Source: Lamprocystis purpurea DSM 4197
Lineage (GTDB): Bacteria; Pseudomonadota; Gammaproteobacteria; Chromatiales; Chromatiaceae
DNA length: 50,966 nucleotides
NCBI RefSeq assembly: GCF_000379525.1
Contig: NZ_KB902524.1
Coordinates: 1-50,966, forward strand
Direction: 5' to 3'
This document shows, in pieces, positions 26,621 through 45,553 of this stretch. Position 1 is the stretch's first letter. Each line of letters begins with the position of its first letter. The notes beneath the pieces were generated by a model. It saw nothing but the letters and a program-made list of their open reading frames with translations. It made no database searches and was not told where the DNA came from. The position numbers and the translations under genes are program-made.

Positions 26621-26622
26621 TT

Positions 26623-27493
26623 CCGTGGGAAAGAGGACGGCATTCCGTGGGAAAGAGGACGGCATTCCGTGGGAAAGAGGACGGCGTTTACGGGGAAAAA
26701 GGACGGTGGTTCGGGGGAAAGTGGACGGTGGTGCTGTGGATAAGTGACTGGTCCCACAGCGATTGCTCCGTGGGAAAAAGGGCGGAGGTCGTTGGGCGGA
26801 TGACGGCGTTGGATGTTTGGACGCCGCGGTGCGGGACCGGGTCATGAGGTCCTGCGAAGGTTGAATCGCGACGGCATCTGAACGGCGCTGGTGAATGGAT
26901 CGTGCGGCTGGTTCGAGGCTCGAAACAACGAAGCCACTGTTTTTAGAATTTATCAATTCTATTGTAAGGAAACAGACAAGGCTTTTCTCGAATCGTGGAC
27001 ACCTTGCTTGGTTGATCTAATGAACGCGAGGCTGTCGGGTGAGTCTACGCCTGCGCGTTGTGTTGCTCCGTGGGAAAAAGGACGGCTTAAGGGAAAGACA
27101 AAGCAAGCAGTTTGAGGGGTATCTCTGGCGGATACGCGTGTAATTCGTGGGAAAACGGACGGAGCTTAAGGCCGGTGAGATCAGGGGTGTGGGTTCGGTC
27201 TGTCGTCAGTGGCTTTAGTGGGAAAAGGGACGGGCTGGCGGGACCAATGAACGGGTTAGCAAGTCACGTAAAAATTTGAAAAATAAGTAGTCTTTGTCTC
27301 TACAATGGAGTGACGTTCGGGCGTCAGTGAGTGGCGCAAGGCCACCCGGCAGATCCGCCAGGCCGTGTGGAAGCCACCGTGTGCAAGTCACCGTGCGTAA
27401 GAGTGAGTCGCTCAGACGACGGACGATAGTTTCGTGGGAAAGTAGACGGTGCTTTGTTGGCGATGCCAAAGGGTTCCGTGGGAAACGAGACGG
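26623..27493 (+). repeat. Iteron array of a plasmid-type replication origin (oriV)
   Basis: At least eleven 18-bp copies of CCGTGGGAAAGAGGACGG-like sequence, all in one orientation. They begin at 26623, 26645, 26667, 26689, 26711, 26768, 27068, 27145, 27216, 27432 and 27476. The first five are exactly 22 bp apart (two helical turns), so an initiator would bind one face of the DNA. Copies 1-3 are identical; the later, spaced copies are degenerate and may serve copy-number control. The initiator gene lies 200 bp downstream, facing the array with its 3' end. Confidence 0.92.
26735..26743 (-). promoter_or_regulatory. Consensus DnaA box
   Basis: Minus-strand TTATCCACA, a perfect match to the classical DnaA box, lies seven bases after the fifth iteron. 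Iteron origins commonly carry such a box for host DnaA recruitment. Confidence 0.8.
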
Positions 27494-28898: not shown

Positions 28899-28948
28899 AT
28901 TGGCCAAAATAGAGGAAAATGTTCTAATTAGGCCAAATCTGTTAACAG
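28899..28948. promoter_or_regulatory. Operator-like repeats in the parA leader
   Basis: The direct repeats ATTGGCCAAAAT (28899-28910) and ATTAGGCCAAAT (28927-28938) and the perfect palindrome CTGTTAACAG (28939-28948) precede the likely parA start. ParA proteins with an N-terminal DNA-binding domain autoregulate through sites in this position. Confidence 0.45.
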
Positions 28949-28959
28949 AGAAAAAAGGC

Positions 28960-30117
28960 ATGCGTGCGAAGCGATCGATCGAGGATTTGCTGAACCGGAT
29001 TCAAGGCGTGCGAGAGCAGCTCAAAGACTACAATCTGGCTCCCGATCATGTGAAACGCGACACCCGCCTTTACGCGATGCGCGAAGCAGCGGAACTGATC
29101 GGTCGGAGTGACCAGACGATCCGGGATGCAGAGGCCGACGGTCGGCTGGCTACTCCGGAAATCGGACCGAACGGGAAACGGGTTGGCTATACGCTTGCGC
29201 AGATTAATGATGCACGTGATGTTTTGGGTACCCGGCTGAAGCGGGCAACTGACGAGGAGCCGGTGGTTATTGGATGCCAGTCTTTCAAGGGTGGGTCCGG
29301 TAAGACCACGACCGCGGTACACCTGACACAGTATCTTGCGCGACAAGGTCTCAGGGTCTTGTTGGTTGATTGCGACCCGCAGGCGTCGGCCACGGCGATC
29401 TTCGGCTATGTCCCGGAGGCTGACCTCAGTCCGGACGAAACACTTCTGCCGTTTCTTGAGGGGGATCGTGACGACTTGGTCTACTCGGTGAGAGCAACCT
29501 ATTTTGACGGGGTCTACTTGGTGCCGTCCAATCTTCATCTCTATCGGTCCGAGTACACCCTGGCCTCAGGCACTGCGAAGCTTGATCGGCTTAAAGAGGG
29601 AATCGATACCATCGCGGCGGGTTTCGATGTGGTAGTGATCGATCCTCCCCCCTCGCTTGGCATGATCAGCTTGAACGCGCTCTACGCCAGCAATGCGCTG
29701 ATCATCCCGATGTCTCTTGGTTTGCTGGATTTTTACAGCACGGTATCTTTTATCCAGATGCTCAACGAGACCTTGGACGTGATTGAGCAGCGGGTAGGGA
29801 TTTTCCGTTCGAAATTCGTCAAAGTGCTGATGACGCGCGTGAACGAGGGGAAGCCTGTGCACATTCAGTTGGCCGATCATCTCCAGGCGAGTTTCGGGAC
29901 CTACCTGATGAAGGCGCGAATGCACGACTCAGCGGCGGTTGACAACGCGGGCGTCATGATGAGGACAGTCTATGAACTCGATAAGACGTCCGCGAATCGG
30001 AAGACGCTGATCCGGGCAACGATGTTGTTCGATTTGGTAAACGCCGAGATTCTGAGTCTGATTCGAGCGACTTGGCCAAGTCACCATAAGGCGTTACGGG
30101 CGCAGGGTCTAATGTAA
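28960..30117 (+). CDS. parA: ParA-family partition ATPase with N-terminal DNA-binding domain
   Basis: About 385 residues. Residues 1-100 carry a MerR-like helix-turn-helix (YAMREAAELIGRSDQTIRDA), as in P1-type ParA proteins that also repress their operon. The ATPase half has the deviant Walker A motif FKGGSGKTTT (about 109-118), Walker A' LLVDCDPQASAT and Walker B VVVIDPPPSLG. It moves ParB-parS complexes to segregate the replicon. A TTG at 28900 would add 20 residues; ATG 28960 is preferred because the leader then holds the operator-like repeats, but neither ribosome site is strong. Confidence 0.9.
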   Translation: MRAKRSIEDLLNRIQGVREQLKDYNLAPDHVKRDTRLYAMREAAELIGRSDQTIRDAEADGRLATPEIGPNGKRVGYTLAQINDARDVLGTRLKRATDEEPVVIGCQSFKGGSGKTTTAVHLTQYLARQGLRVLLVDCDPQASATAIFGYVPEADLSPDETLLPFLEGDRDDLVYSVRATYFDGVYLVPSNLHLYRSEYTLASGTAKLDRLKEGIDTIAAGFDVVVIDPPPSLGMISLNALYASNALIIPMSLGLLDFYSTVSFIQMLNETLDVIEQRVGIFRSKFVKVLMTRVNEGKPVHIQLADHLQASFGTYLMKARMHDSAAVDNAGVMMRTVYELDKTSANRKTLIRATMLFDLVNAEILSLIRATWPSHHKALRAQGLM

Positions 30118-30139
30118 TTTTCTGGTGGGGGAGGCAATG

Positions 30140-31156
30140 ATGGTAGCGAAAGGGTCAACAGGTGAGATGTTCAAGGCGTTGGCGAAAGGAACAGACGTCG
30201 ACGGGGGAGACGTTCAGGTCCCGGAGCAGGTTCCGCCGTTGCGGGCTCAACAGTCCGGGTCTTCGATAGGAATACTTGCGGGACGCGAGGGAGCGATTTG
30301 GGAGGTATCGTCCGGCAAGAAGGTGACGCGGGTGGTGCGGCGAGTCGATCCGAATCGGTGCCGAATCTGGACGCGGCACAATCGTCGTTACGATCTTCTT
30401 TCGCCCGAGTCTTGTGCGGATCTCATTGAGGGCTTCAGGCAACAAGGGGGACAAGAGTTTCCTGCAATTGTACGACGGGTGACGGACGGTACGCCGTTCG
30501 ATTATGAGGTGATCTCTGGGGCACGACGGCACTGGACAGCCCGATTTCTGAAGTACGAGTTTTTGGTTGAAGAGCGTGAACTGAACGATCTGGAGGCGTT
30601 CCGTCTCTCAGACGTAGAGAATCGACATCGGGAGGATCTGAGTGATTATGAGCGGGCAGTAGACTACCTTCAGGCGCTGGATCTCTATTATGAAGGGAGC
30701 CAGAAGCAGATGGCGATGAACCTTGAACGCTCTGAGGGCTGGCTGAGTCGCTATTTGGATCTGGCGAGGTTGGACCCGGTTATTCTGGAGGCAGTGCGCG
30801 ATGTTCGGGAGGTTACGGTCAACCAGGCGCGGGTGATCAAGCCGTTGCTGGTCGGCAAGACGCGTGCAGTGGTACTGGAGAAGGCGAGGGAGTTTGCGGG
30901 GCTAGCTGAAAAATCAGGTGCCCAGGAAGTGTTTCGTGTGCTCACCCAGGTTGCTATGGAGCCGAAGGTGGCGAGGAGTACCGCAACACTGGCGACGGTA
31001 GCGGCGAAGGATACCGGAAAGATTTTGGTCGTGGCGCGTCGCCATGGACGAGGGGGATTGTTGGTTCAGATTGACGAACGATCCGGGGCTAGCAAGGAAG
31101 AAGTATTGGATGCGCTGAAGGAGTTGGTGGAGCGACACTACGCGCCAGGCAGATGA
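30140..31156 (+). CDS. parB: ParB-family partition protein
   Basis: About 338 residues. The N-terminal ParB domain shows RQQGGQEFPAIVRRV, then VISGARRHWTARFL (the GxRRxxA box) and SDVENRHREDLSDYERA (the ENxxR box). The helix-turn-helix region, SQKQMAMNLERSEGWLSRYL, recognises the centromere. GGAGG sits five bases before ATG 30140, 22 bases after the parA stop, so the genes form an operon. Together with the initiator and iterons it completes a stability module. Confidence 0.9.
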   Translation: MVAKGSTGEMFKALAKGTDVDGGDVQVPEQVPPLRAQQSGSSIGILAGREGAIWEVSSGKKVTRVVRRVDPNRCRIWTRHNRRYDLLSPESCADLIEGFRQQGGQEFPAIVRRVTDGTPFDYEVISGARRHWTARFLKYEFLVEERELNDLEAFRLSDVENRHREDLSDYERAVDYLQALDLYYEGSQKQMAMNLERSEGWLSRYLDLARLDPVILEAVRDVREVTVNQARVIKPLLVGKTRAVVLEKAREFAGLAEKSGAQEVFRVLTQVAMEPKVARSTATLATVAAKDTGKILVVARRHGRGGLLVQIDERSGASKEEVLDALKELVERHYAPGR

Positions 31157-38334: not shown

Positions 38335-39087
38335 GAACGGAAATGCATTGACTGGGTGGCGGAGGAGCGTCTATTTTACATGAGCAACTCGATCGTCAAT
38401 GAAGATTTCACTATTCACAAAATGTGCTTGCTGGTGTTGAACCAGTCGATCCGTGCGCCGCAGCGAAACAGCGTGCTTCTGGCGATCGATGGTGAATTAT
38501 CCACCAAGTAGACAGCCCCTGCCGCCAGGAAAACGCGCAACAATACCAGTGTGGTTTTTGTTGTCAACAATATCGACATCCGATTCATCGCTTTGTTCCA
38601 ACTGGCCGAATGAACGGAGACCCTGACGGGGTGCCGATGGTTCTAGACTGCGAGCAGAAACGACGCGGGCGCGAGCTAAGGTTACGACCAGGCACCGCGT
38701 TAGGGGCGGTTCTTGGCGCTGGTAGGGTAAGGGCGCGGGAGCCCGTAACGATTCGCCGGGTGATCACCTAATGACTCAGGGCGCATTCCGCCTCGTTGTC
38801 GATGAGGTCACGGGAACAGTTACAGGACGGGAAGCAGTATGCGGCAGCAAGTGCCGAGGACAATGCGAGCGGCTACTGAGCGAATCAACCGTGCGTACGG
38901 ATCGTAAGTATCTTTCGTCAATCGCTATAAGAGCCAAAACAATGCGACACCTTGATCAATCATGTAGGTGCAAAAATTTTGTTATATAATTCATTACATT
39001 GAAGTACTTAGCAGGCAGGGTGCGGGGAACGCAATCACCACGACTCAGAAACCTGAGCCGTGTCGACTGACCCCTAAAGGCCGTCAG
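38335..39087. other. Intergenic region between crtC remnant and puc genes
   Basis: About 750 bp without a supported gene. A stem CACGACTCAG/CTGAGCCGTG (39039-39062, one mismatch, four-base loop) lies just downstream of the last pucA and may protect or end that transcript. TGTC and GACA half-sites at 38562-38577 have the wrong spacing (9, not 10) for PpsR. Confidence 0.45.
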
Positions 39088-39333
39088 TTACTTGCTGACA
39101 GGCGCCGGGGCAACCACGGCGACGGGAGCGTGAAGCTTCGCGACGGAATCCTTGAAGCCATAGCCGGGCAGGGAGAGGGCATAGCTGTGAACCAGCCACA
39201 TCTGGACCATCAGCACGATGAACCACGGCACCATCCAGTTGGCGGGATTGATCACGGTCCAGATCTTCCAGTCTTCTTCCGGATGCTCGATCTTGACGAT
39301 GGACTCATCGGACATCAGATACGGAACTTTCAT
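39088..39333 (-). CDS. pucA: LH2 antenna alpha polypeptide (copy 1)
   Basis: An 81-residue light-harvesting 2 alpha chain. KIWTVINPANWMVPWFIVLM opens the membrane helix, and MVQMWLVHSYALSLPGYGF contains the His that ligates the B850 bacteriochlorophyll. The N-terminal MKVPYLMSDESIVKIEHPEE extension and the Ala/Pro/Val-rich C-terminal tail (APVAVVAPAPV) are longer than in non-sulfur bacteria but shared by all three copies here. It is last in a pucBABA transcript. Confidence 0.93.
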   Translation of the reverse strand: MKVPYLMSDESIVKIEHPEEDWKIWTVINPANWMVPWFIVLMVQMWLVHSYALSLPGYGFKDSVAKLHAPVAVVAPAPVSK

Positions 39334-39377
39334 TTAAATACCCCGTTAGTGTAAGACGTGAACCAGAGCAGAGAGAA

Positions 39378-39518
39378 TCAGAACCAGGGCTGATAGGCCC
39401 AGGTCACCAAATGGACCGCGGACGCAATCATCACCCAGCTCCACACACCATGCTTCCAATGCTCGTGAAACTCTTTCGCCTGCTCGTTGGTCAGACCCGA
39501 GATGTTGCCGGAATTCAT
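39378..39518 (-). CDS. pucB: LH2 antenna beta polypeptide (copy 1)
   Basis: A 46-residue beta chain starting MNSGNISGLTNEQAKEFHEH. The first conserved His (EFHEHW) is near the B800 region, and VMIASAVHLVTWAYQPWF holds the B850-ligating His and the C-terminal Trp motif. The protein is identical to copies 2 and 3. It precedes pucA copy 1 by 44 bp on the minus strand. Confidence 0.95.
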   Translation of the reverse strand: MNSGNISGLTNEQAKEFHEHWKHGVWSWVMIASAVHLVTWAYQPWF

Positions 39519-39546
39519 ATTCTAAACCTCTTAAGAGCGTTTGGAT

Positions 39547-39642
39547 AAAGATCGCCTTGCCCGTGAGGGAAAGGCTGCACTCGATTGACTGCGGGCTTAG
39601 GCCCGCAGTCTCGATCCCCTATCGGAGCGCGGGGCGATCTTT
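39547..39642. repeat. Intercistronic stem-loop between the two puc pairs
   Basis: Outer arms AAAGATCGCC (39547-39556) and GGCGATCTTT (39633-39642) enclose a perfect inner stem, ACTGCGGGC/GCCCGCAGT (39588-39609) with a four-base loop flanked by TCGA on both sides. In the minus-strand transcript it directly follows the stop of pucA copy 2 and could stabilise the upstream pucBA segment or partly stop transcription before the next pair. Confidence 0.65.
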
Positions 39643-39880
39643 ACTGAACGGGGGCCGGGGCGACCACGGCGACGGGGGCGTGCAGCTTCGCGACGGAATC
39701 CTTGAAGCCATAGCCGGGCAGGGAGAGGGCATAGCTGTGGACCAGCCACATCTGGACCATCAGCACGATAAACCACGGCACCATCCAGTTGGCGGGGTTG
39801 ATCACGGTCCAGATCTTCCAGTCGTCTTCCGGGTGCTCGATTTTGACGCTCTCATCGGCCATCAGAACGGGAACTTTCAT
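39641..39880 (-). CDS. pucA: LH2 antenna alpha polypeptide (copy 2)
   Basis: A 79-residue alpha chain, almost identical to copy 1 from KIWTVINPANW onward and with one residue less near the N-terminus (MKVPVLMADESVKIEHPEDD). The B850-ligating His lies in MWLVHSYALSLPGYGF. It belongs with pucB copy 2, 39 bp upstream. The near identity of the two pairs shows a recent tandem duplication. Confidence 0.93.
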   Translation of the reverse strand: MKVPVLMADESVKIEHPEDDWKIWTVINPANWMVPWFIVLMVQMWLVHSYALSLPGYGFKDSVAKLHAPVAVVAPAPVQ

Positions 39881-39919
39881 TTCATTTACCTTGTATGTGT
39901 GAGTTTGCGCGAAGCCGAA

Positions 39920-40060
39920 TCAAAACCAAGGCTGATAGGCCCAAGTCACCAAGTGGACCGCGGATGCAATCATCACCCAGCTCCACACGCCATGCTTCCA
40001 GTGCTCATGAAACTCCTTCGCCTGCTCGTTGGTCAAACCCGAGATGTTGCCAGAATTCAT
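39920..40060 (-). CDS. pucB: LH2 antenna beta polypeptide (copy 2)
   Basis: A 46-residue beta chain, the first gene of the pucBABA transcript. ATG 40060 is chosen over an upstream GTG because it matches the other copies and is preceded by GAGG. It has the conserved EFHEHW and SAVHLVTWAYQPWF motifs. It is driven by the promoter at 40190-40217. Confidence 0.94.
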   Translation of the reverse strand: MNSGNISGLTNEQAKEFHEHWKHGVWSWVMIASAVHLVTWAYQPWF

Positions 40061-40189
40061 TCTCGTAACCTCACAATGTTGTGAAAACCAGTGTCCCTTC
40101 GCCGGTGGCGGGGACACGCTGCATAGATCGCTAGATCGCAGTACCGTTGCGCTTGTCTCGTCTTAGAGCCACCCGGCGATCTCGGCATT

Positions 40190-40255
40190 AGTTTAACCCG
40201 TCGGCCGACCGTGTCAAGACTAACTGACATTTAATTGTGTCAGGGCCAGCTTACA
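40190..40255 (-). promoter_or_regulatory. puc promoter with two PpsR/CrtJ-type sites
   Basis: Minus strand: TTGACA (40212-40217), a 16-bp spacer and TAAACT (40190-40195). The -35 box lies inside the palindrome TGTC-N10-GACA at 40212-40229. A second TGT-N12-ACA site at 40238-40255 starts 26 bp further upstream. PpsR/CrtJ represses photosynthesis genes through paired sites of this form. The expected leader is about 120 nt. Confidence 0.8.
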
Positions 40256-40516
40256 TAAAGCGGGCTTGCGGACCGCAAGACAAGGTCGCCGTGGACGCGA
40301 CCAGGCGGAACAGGGTGGCGGCCGACATCAAGCCGAGCAGGGCTGATGAATCCCTCGGGGCCTGTCAGGGTCACGGGCCCCGGCACGGTCCGATGACCGG
40401 CGGGGTCTGGGGCCGGAACGACAGCCGACGAGTCGCCGACACGCGAACAATCATTCCGATCGCACCCCGGGCACGCATGCGTTGCAGAGTAACCGGGTCG
40501 CGGGGAAGCGGCTCCC
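40256..40516. other. Gap between pucBABA promoter and the orphan pucB
   Basis: No pucA-like sequence was found in either strand, so the extended beta gene has no alpha partner directly behind it. No other feature was recognised. Confidence 0.5.
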
Positions 40517-40828
40517 CTAGAACCAGGGTTGATATGCCCAGGTCACCAGATGAACGGCCGCAGCGATCATCACCCAGCTCCAGACGCCATGCTTCCAGTG
40601 CTCGTGAAATTCTCTCGCCTGTGCGTCGGTGAGGCCCGATAGGTTCCCGGCCTTCTGCCCAGTGGACTTCGCTGATCCACCAACGAGGCCCGCCTGGTTC
40701 GCGGTTTTCTGCTCAGCGGACTTTGATAGCCCGCCGACCGGGGCCGCCTGGTTCGCGGTTTTCTGCTCAGCGGGCTTCGCTGGTCCGCCAGCGACGCCAG
40801 GCGATTTGGGCGTTTTCCACACAGCCAT
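40517..40828 (-). CDS. pucB: LH2 beta polypeptide with N-terminal repeat extension, orphan
   Basis: A 103-residue protein. Residues about 62-103 are a normal LH2 beta chain (GLTDAQAREFHEHWKHGVW through VHLVTWAYQPWF). In front are about 57 extra residues rich in Ala, Lys, Gly and Gln with an 18-residue repeat (VGGLSKSAEQKTANQAGL-like), nearly three copies; the last merges into the normal N-terminus. At the DNA level a 28-bp block at 40692-40719 recurs exactly at 40746-40773. The frame is uninterrupted and has its own PpsR-type promoter, so it is probably expressed. The extension would lie on the cytoplasmic side of the antenna ring; its role is unknown. Confidence 0.85.
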   Translation of the reverse strand: MAVWKTPKSPGVAGGPAKPAEQKTANQAAPVGGLSKSAEQKTANQAGLVGGSAKSTGQKAGNLSGLTDAQAREFHEHWKHGVWSWVMIAAAVHLVTWAYQPWF

Positions 40829-40962
40829 TTAAATTACTACCTCTATTATAGGGTTTAGAACGAAGCCATATTTCTGGGCGCGCCCCGGGTGTTAGTGCCG
40901 CACAGCAGCGATTCGGATAGTCGCCCCGGGCGACGCTGGCCGGCTACCACGTAGCCGTGGTT

Positions 40963-41002
40963 AGTGTAGCTTGACATAGCTTCGTGTCAAGAAGCGTTGA
41001 CA
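40963..41002 (-). promoter_or_regulatory. Promoter with PpsR/CrtJ-type site for the orphan pucB
   Basis: Minus strand: TTGACA (40985-40990), a 16-bp spacer and TACACT (40963-40968). The -35 box lies in a TGTC-N10-GACA palindrome at 40985-41002, the same design as the two pucBA promoters. A TGACA-N8-TGTCA arrangement overlaps it. The divergent crtF gene starts 208 bp away, so the site may act on both. Confidence 0.75.
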
Positions 41003-41108
41003 GCGAGGCATTCGCACTGTTAGGCAAACCTCCAGCGACCGTTGTCTGCAAGGTCGTGGTTGATGACGAAATGTAGGTGCGGCGCAACTGGCTCGGAATG
41101 AAAATTAA

Positions 41109-41137
41109 TTGACGAGGCAGGGGAAAACGTCTATCCT
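41109..41137 (+). promoter_or_regulatory. Putative sigma70 promoter of crtF
   Basis: TTGACG (41109-41114), a 17-bp spacer and TATCCT (41132-41137), 73 bp before the crtF ATG. Confidence 0.45.
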
Positions 41138-41209
41138 TTTCAGATTAACTTAAGCGTTAGCGATCATCGACATGCCGACGCTGAAACTGTACACCAGTAG
41201 GGATTTAGT

Positions 41210-42367
41210 ATGGACCCGATGCGGTATATCGAACCGGCCGTGGTCCCCGGCGGGCGGGTCGCGGGCTGGCATCGAGGCTGGCTGGACCTGCGCAATCGGC
41301 TCCTGGCATCCCCGCGCTTCCAGCGCTGGGTGGCCGGGTTCCCGCTGACGCGGCCGCTCGCCCGGCGCCGGGCGCGGAATCTGTTCGACCTGTGCGCAGG
41401 ATTTGTCTACTCGCAGATCCTCTTTGCCTGTATCGAGTTGGATCTCTTCGACCTGCTTGCCGAAGGTCCTTTGAGCGTGCGCGATTTGGCCGGGCGTCTA
41501 GATCTTCCGGAGCCCGCGACTTGGCGCTTGCTCAAATCGGCCGAGTCCCTGGAACTGGTTGAGTGCATTGCCGCGGATCACTATGCCCTAGGCGAACTGG
41601 GGGCGGCCCTGCGCGGCAATCCGGGGATCGTGGAGATGGTGCGTCACCACGCTATGCTCTACCGCGATTTGGCGGACCCCGTGGGTCTGCTGCGTGACCG
41701 GCGCACGACCCATCTGGGGGCCTATTGGGCCTATGCCGACAGCACGGCGCCAGAGCGTCTGGAGACCGGTAGCACCCGCGACTACACCGCCCTGATGAGC
41801 GACTCGCAGGGACTGGTCAGTAGTGACATTCTGGACAGCTATTCCATGGAGCCGCACCGTCGGCTGCTGGACCTGGGGGGCGGGAATGGGACCTTTCTGG
41901 CGGCGGTCGCGGCCCGCTGGCCGCACTTGGACTTGCGGCTCTTCGACCTGCCCGCGGTGGTTGAGCAGGCCAGGGAGCGCTTGGCGCGCGAGGGGTTGGC
42001 GAACCGCGCCCAAGCCATCGGCGGCGACCTGTTTCGCGATACCCTACCGTCAGGAGCTGACCTGATCACCTTGGTGCGCGTGGTCCATGACCACGACGAT
42101 GGTCCAGTGGTGGGGCTCCTGCGCGCCGCCCGTGAGGCGTTGTCGGACGGTGGGACCCTACTCTTGGCCGAACCGATGGCCGGGACGCCGGGGGCGGAGC
42201 CGATTGGCGAAGCCTACTTCGGTTTCTATCTGTGGGCCATGGGCAGCGGGCGTCCGCGTACCAGTAAGGAGCTCACCGCCATGCTGCACCAGGCCGGCTT
42301 CACCACGGTGCGCGAGGTTTCCACGCGGCGGCCCCTGCTGATGCGTCTCCTAGTCGCCCGCGCCTGA
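41210..42367 (+). CDS. crtF: Carotenoid O-methyltransferase
   Basis: A 385-residue SAM-dependent methyltransferase of the CrtF type, which methylates the tertiary 1-hydroxyl of acyclic carotenoids (the psi-end methoxy group of spheroidene, spirilloxanthin and okenone). An N-terminal helical dimerisation region (ARNLFDLCAGFVYSQILFAC, then LFDLLAEGPLSVRDLAGRL) precedes the SAM motif LLDLGGGNGTFLAA (about 219-232), DLRLFDLPAVVEQAR, and LVRVVHDHDDGPVVGLLRAA with the catalytic-type His. GGTLLLAEPMAG and HQAGFTTVREV follow. It is divergent from the orphan pucB. Confidence 0.92.
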   Translation: MDPMRYIEPAVVPGGRVAGWHRGWLDLRNRLLASPRFQRWVAGFPLTRPLARRRARNLFDLCAGFVYSQILFACIELDLFDLLAEGPLSVRDLAGRLDLPEPATWRLLKSAESLELVECIAADHYALGELGAALRGNPGIVEMVRHHAMLYRDLADPVGLLRDRRTTHLGAYWAYADSTAPERLETGSTRDYTALMSDSQGLVSSDILDSYSMEPHRRLLDLGGGNGTFLAAVAARWPHLDLRLFDLPAVVEQARERLAREGLANRAQAIGGDLFRDTLPSGADLITLVRVVHDHDDGPVVGLLRAAREALSDGGTLLLAEPMAGTPGAEPIGEAYFGFYLWAMGSGRPRTSKELTAMLHQAGFTTVREVSTRRPLLMRLLVARA

Positions 42368-42399
42368 CCACGACGCGCAGGAAATTCAGGACTCTGCCT

Positions 42400-42618
42400 C
42401 ACCGGCACCCGCTGCTCCATTCCATTGATAGCCCCGCGGGCCTGCGCGCCATCGCCGAGCCGCCGCCCGGCAGCACGGGGAGCGCCGTCCAGGTGGTCGC
42501 GGTGATCGGTGACGGGGCCTTGAGCGGCGGCATGGCCTTCAAGGCACTGAACCTGCTTTTCGTTCGACAACAGAAACACTGCGGCTCGGTTACCCGAGCC
42601 GCAGTGACTGCCGCGTAA
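42400..42618 (+). pseudogene. dxs: dxs remnant with internal deletion
   Basis: One open frame directly after crtF joins two separate pieces of 1-deoxyxylulose-5-phosphate synthase: the N-terminal LLHSIDSPAGLRAI and the thiamine-diphosphate segment VVAVIGDGALSGGMAFKALN. About 120 intervening residues are missing, and the frame ends 24 residues after the second piece. The enzyme feeds isoprenoid and hence carotenoid synthesis, and dxs often lies in photosynthesis gene clusters, so this is a relic of an ancestral neighbour. Confidence 0.75.
42578..42605. terminator. 12-bp perfect stem-loop after crtF/dxs remnant
   Basis: ACTGCGGCTCGG and CCGAGCCGCAGT with the loop TTAC. It is very stable but has no U-tract; it may end or protect the crtF transcript. 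Confidence 0.55.
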
Positions 42619-42735
42619 ATGCTGCCTCTGATTGAAGGCTAATACGGCACAGTAATATCCATTACCGTAGGGAGAGGTGCGGCCTGATCACGCGTCGCGT
42701 TATCAGCTCAGCTATACCTCATAATAAGTAGCCGT

Positions 42736-42775
42736 AAAAAAAGCGACTTCACCTCAAGGGCGAAGTCGCTTTTTT
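42736..42775 (-). terminator. Bidirectional intrinsic terminator after pucBA copy 3
   Basis: AAAAAAGCGACTTC and GAAGTCGCTTTTTT flank an 11-base loop. It has an A-tract on one side and a T-tract on the other, so it would work for the minus-strand pucBA transcript and for plus-strand transcription from crtF. Confidence 0.85.
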
Positions 42776-42832
42776 ATATCAGGGCACTTGGGCCCGCGTT
42801 CTAACGCGAGCCAGCGCCTGCGGAGCTTTATC

Positions 42833-43087
42833 TTACTGAGCGACAGGAGCGGGGGCCATTACCACGACGGGTTGTTTGGCGGCGTACGCGTTGGCAGCGG
42901 CATCCTTCCAGCCATAGCCGGGCAGGGCCAGGGCATAAGTATGAATCATCCACATTTGGACCATCAGCACGATGAACCACGGAACCATCCAGTTGGCTGG
43001 GTTGATTACGGTCCAGATCTTCCAGTCTTCTTCCGGATGCTCAATCTTGACGATCTTCTCATCGGCCAGCAGATAAGGAACTTTCAT
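42833..43087 (-). CDS. pucA: LH2 antenna alpha polypeptide (copy 3)
   Basis: An 84-residue alpha chain with the same core as copies 1 and 2 (KIWTVINPANWMVPWFIVLM) but differences after the helix: MWMIHTYALALPGYGWKDAA and a longer tail (AAKQPVVVMAPAPVAQ). PGYGW replaces PGYGF close to the B850 pigments, so its spectrum may differ slightly. It forms a two-gene operon with pucB copy 3 and is followed by an intrinsic terminator. Confidence 0.93.
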   Translation of the reverse strand: MKVPYLLADEKIVKIEHPEEDWKIWTVINPANWMVPWFIVLMVQMWMIHTYALALPGYGWKDAAANAYAAKQPVVVMAPAPVAQ

Positions 43088-43126
43088 TTAAATTACCTTG
43101 GGTTGTGGATTTTGGACGATGCCTGA

Positions 43127-43267
43127 CTAGAACCAGGGCTGGTAAGCCCAAGTCACCAAGTGGACAGCGGATGCGATCATCACCCAGCTCCACACACCAT
43201 GCTTCCAGTGCTCGTGAAATTCCTTTGCCTGTTCGTTGGTCAGTCCCGAGATATTGCCAGAATTCAT
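43127..43267 (-). CDS. pucB: LH2 antenna beta polypeptide (copy 3)
   Basis: A 46-residue beta chain with the same protein sequence as copies 1 and 2 (MNSGNISGLTNEQAKEFHEH through VTWAYQPWF). GAGGTTATGAAG precedes the ATG. The leader of about 155 nt shares an AGATCGCCGGG block with the leader of the pucBABA operon. It is driven by the promoter at 43429-43456. Confidence 0.95.
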   Translation of the reverse strand: MNSGNISGLTNEQAKEFHEHWKHGVWSWVMIASAVHLVTWAYQPWF

Positions 43268-43428
43268 CTTCATAACCTCAAATGACGCTGTGAAAAACCG
43301 TCCCCATCGGACTATGGCCGCAGAGACACCCGCCGTCTATTATAGATCGCAACGCCTTGGCGCATCGCATCCTGACTTGTGTGGTCCCCGACTCGTATCG
43401 TCTTGGAACAGCCCGGCGATCTGGGCTT

Positions 43429-43494
43429 ATTGTAACCCCGCAGCCGCCTCTGTCAAGGCCAACTGACATTTATTTGTGTCAAGGTTGACTTACA
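43429..43494 (-). promoter_or_regulatory. puc promoter with two PpsR/CrtJ-type sites
   Basis: Minus strand: TTGACA (43451-43456), a 16-bp spacer and TACAAT (43429-43434). The -35 box lies within TGTC-N10-GACA at 43451-43468; a second TGT-N12-ACA site is at 43477-43494, again 26 bp upstream. It is the same layout as at 40190-40255, so both operons should respond together. Confidence 0.82.
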
Positions 43495-43648
43495 TAAGCC
43501 TGACCTTGCGATCCGCACGCCAGACGCGTCTCGGCCGCGACTAGGCGGAGGATGCAGGCGGCTGAAACCGAGCCGGGATAATCGCAGTAAAATCCTTTAT
43601 TATAATATGGTTAGGTGCGCCGGTGTGATCCGACGGGCGCCGTCGGAG

Positions 43649-45553
43649 TCAGGCGCCTGTCGTTAACGGACCGACCAGCGCCACGGCCGGGATTGGGTTC
43701 TCACGCAAGTGCTCCGCCGCCAGGATACGATTTGCCGCCATCCTGCCGGTCATGGTAGCCGCCTCCATCAGATTGGCCGGCACCTCCAGCCTGACGAAGT
43801 CCCCGGCGAGAAACAGGTTGTCGAACGGTGTTGCGACGCCCGGCCGCCCCGCATGGTCGCCCGGTGCCCAGCGCGGAAAATTCTGCTGCATCATGTAAAT
43901 GTCGTGAATGATCTCGGCCCCTTGCAATTCCGGGATCAGCTCATCCAATTCCGCCCGCATCAGCCGCTTGATCTCGGCTTCCGGCAGGACGTTATGTTCT
44001 TCCACGGCATAGGCGTGCAACTCGACGACGGCGCCGCGCCGACGCCGCGCCCAGTCCTCGTACGCCGGCTGCAACTGCGAGTAGATGGCGATGGAATCGA
44101 CGTAACGGTAGCCGCTGACGGTATAGAAAGGAACATATTGCGGGCGCAGCTCCCGGTCGAGCCAGATGCGCCAGACGATGTAGGGGTCGGCAACGCCCAA
44201 GCGCGCGACGCTGCTGACCAGAGTCTGATCGGAGATCTCGGAATGGGCCAGGATATTCTTGAGTCCAGGCACATCGCAGGCCAGTACGAAATAATCCGCG
44301 GCATATTCGGTAGTAGACTGAAGCGGCGCGGCCGTCAGGTGCACGGCATCTCCCCGCAACTCTGCCGCCACCGCGGGCAGGGGGAGAATGGCCGGACCCG
44401 CGGTCGGCACGCCCTGCCGATCATACTTGGCACCATGGCAAGGACAGGCGAAACCGCCGGTGGCTGGGTCTAGCGCAACTGGACAGCCCATGTGCGTGCA
44501 GCGGCTCGACAGCGCTGCGTAGTCGCCGCGGTCGTCCCGCTTGACGAAGTAAAGCTCCCCGGATTTGGAACGGGTCGGTTGCCAGTCGTTCCCTACCGCG
44601 TTGGCCGGGACTTGGTGTGCTTCACCCTGACTACTCCCCGCCGACCGCAAGACCAGCTTGGTGATGCGCCCATCCGTTTCCACCAGGCGCTCGACCTCCA
44701 TGTCGGTCAACACTTTACCGCCCAACGCAATCAGTAGGTCTTTCAGGGGTGTGACTACCGAGGTCATGGCGTCGTCGATGGTTTGGTCGTAGCCCATACC
44801 GTCTGGGTTGCCGAGGTAGAAAAAGTGAAAAAAGCGGATACCCTCGGCGGTCGAGTATTGGTGGAACTGATTGAAGGAGGTATGTGCGAAGGGTTCGATG
44901 ATCGTATCGACCATAGGCCGGTTAATATCCCGGCAGAAGCTTTTGAAGTCGATGTCATCGAACTTACGAAATGTCCGTTCCGGCTGGTAGCGCATCAACT
45001 CATACAGCGCGTCGGAGGGCGGATAGAAATCCAACAGCGAGACGGACTTGGCCTGGCCGACGACCGCGAGCAGGTTGAACGGAAACAGGGTCGTGGTATT
45101 GGTGAAGCTCTCCATTGGTTTGTTCTTGAAGAGAATCGGGTAATCGCGAACCGGCTTCAGGTTTTTTAACAGTCCGGTCTCGGCGAGCAGTCCTTTCAGG
45201 TTGTAATATTGGTTGAAAAAACCGTGAAAGCCATGCTCCATGGCCATGGTCTCGCCCTCGACTTGCACCTGCCACCCGGTCAGCCGACCGCCGAGTTGGT
45301 TCGCACGCTCGATCAAGGTCACAGCGAATCCGCGCTTCAGCAGTTCATACGCCGCGGCGATACCGGCCAGACCGCCGCCGACGACCAGGACCCGCTTCGC
45401 AACGGCGGGACGCTCCGGCAGCGCATCGTTGTCCGCGACGGCGAACGGCAGGATCGTCCGGCGCGGCTGAATGGCAGAGAGGCCAGCGGCGCCCACGGCT
45501 GTTCCAGCCAATGTCGCGAGTCCGACGTTTCGAAGGAAAATGCGGCGTTTCAT
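43649..45553 (-). CDS. crtU: Carotenoid ring desaturase/methyltransferase with Rieske domain
   Basis: A 634-residue FAD enzyme of the CrtU/CruE family, which turns a beta ring into an aromatic (phi or chi) ring. The FAD motif RVLVVGGGLAGIAAAYELL is at about 54-72; the family block HGFHGFFNQYYNLKGLLAE follows. A Rieske [2Fe-2S] insert has CTHMGC (about 351) and CPCHGAKY (about 367). LFLAGDFVRLEVPANLMEAA closes the FAD fold. The N-terminus, KRRIFLRNVGLATLAG, looks like a twin-arginine signal or membrane anchor, unexpected in this family. With crtY next door, it is the candidate chi-ring enzyme of okenone synthesis. Confidence 0.88.
   Translation of the reverse strand: MKRRIFLRNVGLATLAGTAVGAAGLSAIQPRRTILPFAVADNDALPERPAVAKRVLVVGGGLAGIAAAYELLKRGFAVTLIERANQLGGRLTGWQVQVEGETMAMEHGFHGFFNQYYNLKGLLAETGLLKNLKPVRDYPILFKNKPMESFTNTTTLFPFNLLAVVGQAKSVSLLDFYPPSDALYELMRYQPERTFRKFDDIDFKSFCRDINRPMVDTIIEPFAHTSFNQFHQYSTAEGIRFFHFFYLGNPDGMGYDQTIDDAMTSVVTPLKDLLIALGGKVLTDMEVERLVETDGRITKLVLRSAGSSQGEAHQVPANAVGNDWQPTRSKSGELYFVKRDDRGDYAALSSRCTHMGCPVALDPATGGFACPCHGAKYDRQGVPTAGPAILPLPAVAAELRGDAVHLTAAPLQSTTEYAADYFVLACDVPGLKNILAHSEISDQTLVSSVARLGVADPYIVWRIWLDRELRPQYVPFYTVSGYRYVDSIAIYSQLQPAYEDWARRRRGAVVELHAYAVEEHNVLPEAEIKRLMRAELDELIPELQGAEIIHDIYMMQQNFPRWAPGDHAGRPGVATPFDNLFLAGDFVRLEVPANLMEAATMTGRMAANRILAAEHLRENPIPAVALVGPLTTGA

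Follow-up and report, generated by a model that had tools for sequence, protein, structure and literature searches.

The LH2 complex is the textbook minimal antenna, formed by two short peptides and their pigments. The locus described here raises the question of what an LH2 beta chain does with a long, repeat-built N-terminal tail when its gene has no alpha gene beside it. It lies in a window of 50,966 nucleotides from Lamprocystis purpurea DSM 4197 (contig NZ_KB902524.1), i.e., the whole stretch of DNA that was analysed, and it was singled out in an earlier inspection of the letters alone, referred to here as the sequence-only reading. The tailed beta is real and well defined, better supported and less isolated than was first thought. 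Regarding its role, we tentatively favour the proposal that it is a surplus beta of some LH2 rings, in which a disordered, positively charged arm exposed on the cytoplasmic side would act as a tether or an entropic spacer for packing. The coordinates of the features are given in Table 1.

Table 1. Features of the tailed beta locus and of the neighbouring puc genes (window coordinates)
Feature	Position	Strand	Basis
Tailed LH2 beta gene without alpha partner, 103 aa	40517..40828	-	ORF, core match to 6zxa_B, orthologues
LH2 beta core, residues 62-103 (helix 68-99 in model)	40520..40645	-	phmmer, model, tree
Repeat unit 3, residues 50-67, extends into canonical beta start NLSGLT	40628..40681	-	Tandem Repeats Finder, unit comparison
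Repeat unit 2, residues 32-49	40682..40735	-	Tandem Repeats Finder, unit comparison
Repeat unit 1, residues 14-31	40736..40789	-	Tandem Repeats Finder, unit comparison
Non-repeated head MAVWKTPKSPGVA, residues 1-13	40790..40828	-	Repeat-unit analysis
Shine-Dalgarno-like GAGGT, 10 nt 5' of ATG	40839..40843	-	Same in both orthologues
Degenerate second PpsR-type site TGT-N12-ACC, 26 bp on	40959..40976	-	pucBA pair spacing
Promoter-like TTGACA-N16-TACACT (10/12)	40963..40990	-	Aligned in orthologues
PpsR/CrtJ-type site TGT-N12-ACA, palindromic pattern	40985..41002	-	Conserved in orthologues
LH2 alpha, 81 aa, beta-alpha-beta-alpha operon	39088..39333	-	ORF
Untailed LH2 beta, 46 aa, beta-alpha-beta-alpha operon	39378..39518	-	ORF, Shine-Dalgarno-led ATG
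LH2 alpha, 79 aa, beta-alpha-beta-alpha operon	39641..39880	-	ORF; 6zxa_A match E 8.6e-34
Untailed LH2 beta, 46 aa, beta-alpha-beta-alpha operon	39920..40060	-	Shine-Dalgarno-led ATG
PpsR-type site pair, beta-alpha-beta-alpha operon	40212..40255	-	Overlaps promoter-like site 40190-40217
LH2 alpha, 84 aa, second pucBA unit	42833..43087	-	ORF
Untailed LH2 beta, second pucBA unit	43127..43267	-	Shine-Dalgarno-led ATG

A complete beta chain behind an obligate tail

The open reading frame reported by the sequence-only reading is real; it runs on the minus strand from an ATG at 40828 to a TAG ending at 40517 and encodes 103 residues. The unmodified chain has a calculated mass near 10.8 kDa. The excess of 57 residues claimed for it was likewise correct, since the window's three untailed betas have 46 residues when counted from their Shine-Dalgarno-led ATG.

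The core is indeed that of a normal LH2 beta, of the Marichromatium purpuratum type. Its best match among PDB chains (phmmer) is 6zxa_B, with an E value of 3.3e-25 against 2e-8 for the next best; the match spans residues 58-103 and includes 46 of the 48 residues of the M. purpuratum chain. Residues N62, Q70, H80, W85, H93 and F103 correspond to Asn7, Gln15, His25, Trp30, His38 and Phe48 of the 6ZXA beta, which the available part of the structural report describes as contact or ligand residues (PMC7880592), and they are invariant in an alignment of 11 rows. An alpha of the window also matches its 6ZXA counterpart. On the other hand, the 103-residue chain differs from 6zxa_B, with 48 residues, in carrying the N-terminal repeat tail and in the absence of an adjoining alpha. 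The tailed beta falls below the cut-offs of both family models, with 19.7 bits versus 23 for PF00556 and 59.3 versus 61 for NF040862; however, these cut-offs barely tell tailed from untailed chains, since the two untailed window betas that were scanned also miss the first (21.5 and 21.3 bits) and just reach the second (61.2 and 61).

The tailed beta has 70 residues ahead of the AKEFH motif, as do its two orthologues described below, whereas the usual short N terminus has 11 to 21. Upstream of residue 86, in-frame ATG, GTG or TTG codons occur only at residues 1 and 3, and no CTG, ATT, ATC or ATA codon was found in frame before residue 88 of the window gene. Therefore, no possible start codon exists between residues 4 and 85, and translation of the core entails translation of the tail. 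The GAGGT stretch 10 nt upstream of the ATG is present in all three tailed genomes. Starts were also recounted over the 63 genes, from 36 sources, that fit a narrow purpuratum-type pattern. In 60 of these 63 betas a ribosome-site-led ATG lies 11-21 residues before AKEFH, and the other three are the tailed trio. In nine of the 60 untailed genes a start of this kind additionally precedes a longer frame, and this was taken as chance. In all, the pattern matches for betas were 80, and two of them (L089 at 1055 and L109 at 545) were dropped as plainly not beta chains.

The RefSeq entry for the tailed beta of 'Candidatus Thiodictyon syntrophicum' Cad16T (NZ_CP020372.1, 15967-15842) consists of the core only, 41 codons and the stop, and the 62 codons ahead of it carry no annotation in the feature table; automatic annotation thus removes the tail, retaining 41 of the 103 residues. 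A core-only start of this kind was ruled out for the window gene, where the CTG of Cad16T is a CTA.

The tail and its repeats

The extension is built of 18-residue repeats, as the sequence-only reading had stated; three units occupy residues 14-67, behind a head of 13 residues. Tandem Repeats Finder detected a period of 54 with 3.1 copies and a score of 189 at 40631-40798, and the pairs of 18-residue units share 13, 9 and 7 identities. The exact DNA repeats 54 bp apart that had been reported are present, but their length of 28 bp needs correction, the longest exact repeat being 30 bp. When codons 2-67 were shuffled (n=2000), the longest run at this offset was 12 and none reached 30 bp. It is inferred from this structure that the tail grew when a 54-bp stretch at the beginning of a beta gene was duplicated in tandem and in frame.

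Residues 1-61 are rich in Ala, Gly, Lys, Pro and Gln. Residues 1-62 have a net charge of +6, common to the tails of all three tailed genomes, and 87% of them are small, polar, charged or proline; W4 is the sole aromatic residue within the tail. The tail sequence of Cad16T contains SPGLAGGPAK, TANQAAPVGGPSK, TPNQAGHVGGSAK and TANLSGLTDAQAR. An AlphaFold2 model of the tailed beta shows a helix at residues 68-99 and nothing regular before residue 68; in this run, with 11 sequences and a mean pLDDT of 55, only the lack of order is informative, and the tail is accordingly predicted, at the level of the model, to be disordered.

The strand opposite to the tail bears an ORF (40629-40832, plus strand) that is open in all three tailed genomes. 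Its pN/pS is 0.57-0.77 between the window and the other two genomes, no worse than that of the sense tail, and the counts do not separate one from the other. Together with the RefSeq entry that starts at the core in Cad16T, this could be read as a sign that the tail lies outside the working protein, either because it is cut off or because the stretch matters as RNA or through the antisense ORF. We consider this very improbable. The antisense ORF is read as a by-product of a repeat period that is a multiple of three, so that a frame open in one unit tends to be open in all; the region immediately upstream of this ORF gave no plus-strand promoter-like site; the sense frame continues into a complete LH2 beta; and the CTG from which RefSeq starts is CTA in the window gene.

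Orthologues, conservation and origin

Full-length orthologues of 103 residues, with 93% identity and no indels, are present in two of the seven other genomes of the genus, the Thiodictyon MAG Loclat_bin-12166 (G003) and Cad16T (G007), where the gene is located in plasmid pTs485. According to the part of the genome report available, this plasmid carries the photosynthesis gene cluster (PMC5944118). The window and Cad16T differ at 2 of 99 nucleotides in codons 1-33, 8 of 84 in codons 34-61, 6 of 126 in the core and 98 of 790 in the flanks; compared with the flanks, Fisher's test gives P values of 6e-4, 0.6 and 0.01 for the first, second and core parts, respectively. Counted against each orthologue, residues 1-61 of the window gene show 7 nonsynonymous and 2-3 synonymous changes, a dN/dS of about 0.8-1.2; in the core, 0 changes are nonsynonymous and 4-6 synonymous. 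Of the 7 amino-acid changes of the tail, with either orthologue, 1 falls in residues 1-33 and 6 in residues 34-61, from which it follows that the distal half is conserved and that the linker repeats hold length and charge rather than sequence. The flanks of the tailed gene show gaps between genomes, whereas the tail keeps its frame and length without any indel, although an indel-free stretch of 183 nt says little by itself.

These numbers bear on two other readings of the tail. According to the first, it is a by-product: a tandem duplication would have lengthened one duplicate beta, and the chain would either assemble or remain as a minor spare, with a tail that has no particular role. A tail dN/dS near 1, codons 34-61 that diverged like the flanks, the low-complexity repeat origin and the presence in 3 genomes only speak for this reading. 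Nevertheless, we consider it somewhat unlikely, given that codons 1-33 are far more conserved than the flanks, that frame, length and charge are kept in three genomes despite the gapped flanks, that the promoter-like and ribosome sites are also kept, and that the beta tails of relatives are constrained (see below). The second reading takes the distal 33 residues as a docking or sorting tag that would mark special rings, its binding partner being an assembly factor, a cytoplasmic protein or the reaction-centre core. The conserved part of the tail is precisely this distal part, with 1 difference versus 6, and it contains W4, the only aromatic; but the shorter tails of relatives share composition and, by eye, no common motif, and a tag of this kind seems improbable.

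The sequence-only reading had proposed a search of other Chromatiaceae for the extension. The full repeat tail was found in the two Thiodictyon-group orthologues, and the tails found elsewhere were shorter and lacked the 18-residue repeats. Residues 1-81 were compared with 194 family genomes and residues 1-70 with 210 order genomes, two overlapping sets with one genome per species, the family set being a draw from a larger group and part of the loci from its search being retrieved; within this scope, the whole tail is present in 3 genomes only. The other matches to the tail in the order set, in 4 of the 210 genomes, have 36-42% identity, two of them with an internal stop, and look compositional. 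Among the genomes searched, the combination of a gene standing alone with an obligate tail made of repeats was seen in the Thiodictyon trio only.

A tree of core DNA from the 63 purpuratum-type sequences places the three tailed genes in one clade (99/95), whose sister group (91/89) is formed by the nine untailed betas that these three genomes contain. The alignment has 126 columns, so the deeper forks are weak, and the fork that joins tailed and untailed genes lies below the strong mark of the tool. This topology is most simply explained if the tailed gene is an old, retained duplicate that arose by one duplication before the three species split. A viral or phage origin was rejected, no relative having been found in viral contigs (96 pattern matches, 0 confirmed) or in phage records.

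Gene neighbourhood and alpha partners

The tailed gene is followed, after only 456 bp and in the same orientation, by a beta-alpha-beta-alpha operon. The absence of an alpha gene beside it, already pointed out by the sequence-only reading, was confirmed with tblastn: using the three alphas as queries, the best matches in the 3' spacer cover 4-6 amino acids with E values of at least 38, while the positive control was found. An alpha gene or its relic behind the tailed beta is ruled out, these matches being at chance level. Part of this spacer (40250-40335) resembles the region upstream of the second pucBA promoter, with 69% identity over 87 bp. The tailed gene is thus not encoded as a beta-alpha pair, and such pairing is not strictly required of a beta chain. 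The window has 4 beta genes for 3 alpha genes, and the puc region of pTs485 has 5 for 4; on these counts the tailed gene is a surplus beta.

The window and pTs485 share the order GTPase, DUF2868 gene, beta-alpha-beta-alpha operon, lone beta, divergent O-methyltransferase and pucBA; pTs485 additionally contains dxs, and its last unit holds a further beta-alpha pair. The dxs gene, which lies between the O-methyltransferase and pucBA in pTs485, is absent at 42368-42832 of the window, a region with a strong terminator-like hairpin on the minus strand (42577-42606). Elsewhere in the window, some five 22-bp iteron-like repeats lie in tandem next to AT-rich DNA (26621-26728) and are followed by genes for a ParA-like protein (PF13614) and a ParB-like protein (SoPB_HTH, below the cut-off) at 28900-31156; by these features, the contig appears to belong to a plasmid similar to pTs485 that carries photosynthesis genes. 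At the contig end (10-94) there is a 32-bp tandem repeat with 2.7 copies.

Promoter and expression

The sequence-only reading had assigned to the tailed gene a PpsR-type promoter of its own. This holds for the layout, which is that of the two pucBA units, and does not fully hold for the sites, the second of which is degenerate and departs further from the pattern in the orthologues. On the minus strand of the region 39000-43700, the three best promoter-like sites belong to the three puc units, that of the tailed beta included, and each is overlapped by a TGT-N12-ACA motif. This motif shows no excess over the window (8 occurrences versus 6.3 expected), yet 5 of the 8 lie at puc promoters. At the pucBA units the sites come in pairs with a spacing of 26 bp, whereas the tailed gene has one exact site. 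Two neighbouring PpsR/CrtJ sites allow cooperative binding, and the tailed gene may respond to PpsR differently from the pucBA units. The genome of the window contains two PpsR matches over the cut-off (TIGR02040), and two are annotated in pTs485. The spacer between the tailed gene and the next beta has two weak terminator-like sites only, no more than shuffles predict, and a read-through transcript that includes the tailed beta followed by beta-alpha-beta-alpha is possible.

With regard to expression, the part of the Cad16T proteome study available reports six expressed PufAB antenna proteins, including AUB85710.1 (PMC6413534). This accession is out of series, as is that of the tailed gene in RefSeq (WP_100923310.1, after WP_100923308.1 at the plasmid end), and the other proteome accessions, compared by hand with the locus tags, follow the gene order provided that the out-of-series ones belong to the tailed gene and bchC. 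From the order of accessions, AUB85710.1 is very probably the tailed beta of Cad16T, and expression of the gene is probable. Three betas mapped to the proteome list are identical in sequence (WP_020507020.1), which makes shared peptides possible, and if the GenBank boundaries are those of RefSeq, the proteome database contained just the core of the tailed beta.

Shorter tails on other LH2 betas

The statement of the sequence-only reading that nothing in the known LH2 families has such a tail needs correction, as shorter tails occur on other LH2 betas in two genera. Of the eight genomes of the genus that were examined, seven have reaction-centre genes, and a tailed LH2 beta of one kind or another is present in each of these seven. 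In four of them (G001, G002, G004 and G006) these are five betas of another type, with the N terminus MAEPRMA..., one or two per genome next to untailed ones. In seven genomes of a second genus (g27, probably Allochromatium) the tailed beta starts with VAEQKKP or VAEP..., and two more genomes (L062 and L065) have similar tailed betas. These chains resemble the window beta in the hydrophilic Ala/Pro/Lys-rich N-terminal tail that precedes the LH2 beta core, with about 25-37 extra residues and a charge of +1 to +3, but differ from it in beta type, in the absence of 18-residue repeats and in the alpha that follows, found 3' of the beta in all six genes examined. In one g27 genome (L066, G033) the beta tail is about 12 residues longer than those of relatives, i.e., tail length varies there.

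The pN/pS values, for which all pairs were added up although they are not independent of each other, are 0.27 in the tail versus 0.10 in the core for the five genus-mate betas, and 0.36 versus 0.11 for those of g27. The sequences therefore show signs of purifying selection on the shorter tails. Most of these betas have an internal ATG behind a ribosome-site-like stretch, and it is possible that a short product is made from them, the tail being optional. Two or more ribosome-site-led starts per tailed beta were seen in L113 (G002), L114 (G006), L115 (G004) and L116 (G001), whose genes may possibly give long and short forms.

The published record on extended antenna chains offers a few points of comparison. 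In Rhodobacter sphaeroides a second puc locus, puc2BA, reportedly codes for an LH2 subunit that bears a long additional segment (Zeng et al. 2003); it is said to share with the window beta the extended subunit, but its extension would be C-terminal, on alpha and on the periplasmic side, with beta and alpha paired. Chain 4 of PDB 8k5o, an antenna alpha/beta subunit of 105 residues, is similar in length; however, the match to it is confined to residues 8-47, which puts its extra part at the C-terminal end. The extensions covered in the available parts of PMC10214105 and PMC10516601 are on cytochrome, RC-L and LH1 alpha, and not on LH2 beta. Likewise, in titles and the first lines of abstracts on antenna chains and extensions no description of an LH2 beta tail was found, and an earlier account of the shorter tails is possible.

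Proposed role of the tail

In the model that we favour, the tailed beta would pair with alpha from the neighbouring puc operons and enter the outer ring of some LH2 complexes. In the available part of the 6ZXA report, the beta helices form the outer ring, the N termini are cytoplasmic and the first four residues are untraced (PMC7880592). Given this topology, we infer that the arm would be cytoplasmic in this species as well. Such rings would bear, at the edge of their cytoplasmic face, one or a few disordered arms of about 60 residues with a net charge of +6, each acting as a tether or an entropic spacer that sets the packing of the ring relative to other rings and other membrane components. 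The first ~33 residues may be the contact part and repeats 2 and 3 a linker that keeps length. The sequence-only reading had suggested that the tail could link rings to each other, to lipids or to another protein, or cap mixed rings, all of which are conceivable roles on the evidence gathered here.

The basic N terminus of plant LHCII acts on the stromal side in membrane stacking. By analogy, the tail could stick to an anionic neighbouring intracytoplasmic membrane and stack or space the vesicles. A disordered tail with net +6, cytoplasmic if the 6ZXA topology holds, would suit this function, but the shorter tails of relatives have just +1 to +3, and the idea appears quite improbable.

A broader and doubtful conjecture, which we put forward as speculation, is that LH2 rings with disordered cationic cytoplasmic arms evolved repeatedly in purple sulfur bacteria as a dedicated control of antenna packing or membrane stacking, like the LHCII tail. 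Thiodictyon would then be the extreme case, with a separately promoted, alpha-less tail carrier that is mixed into rings and whose dose sets the number of arms per ring. If the proposed role is true, some LH2 rings would have a cytoplasmic handle, of which none was found in the structures or papers examined. The spacing and sorting of antenna rings in vesicular membranes is a standing question, and the tailed beta makes it testable.
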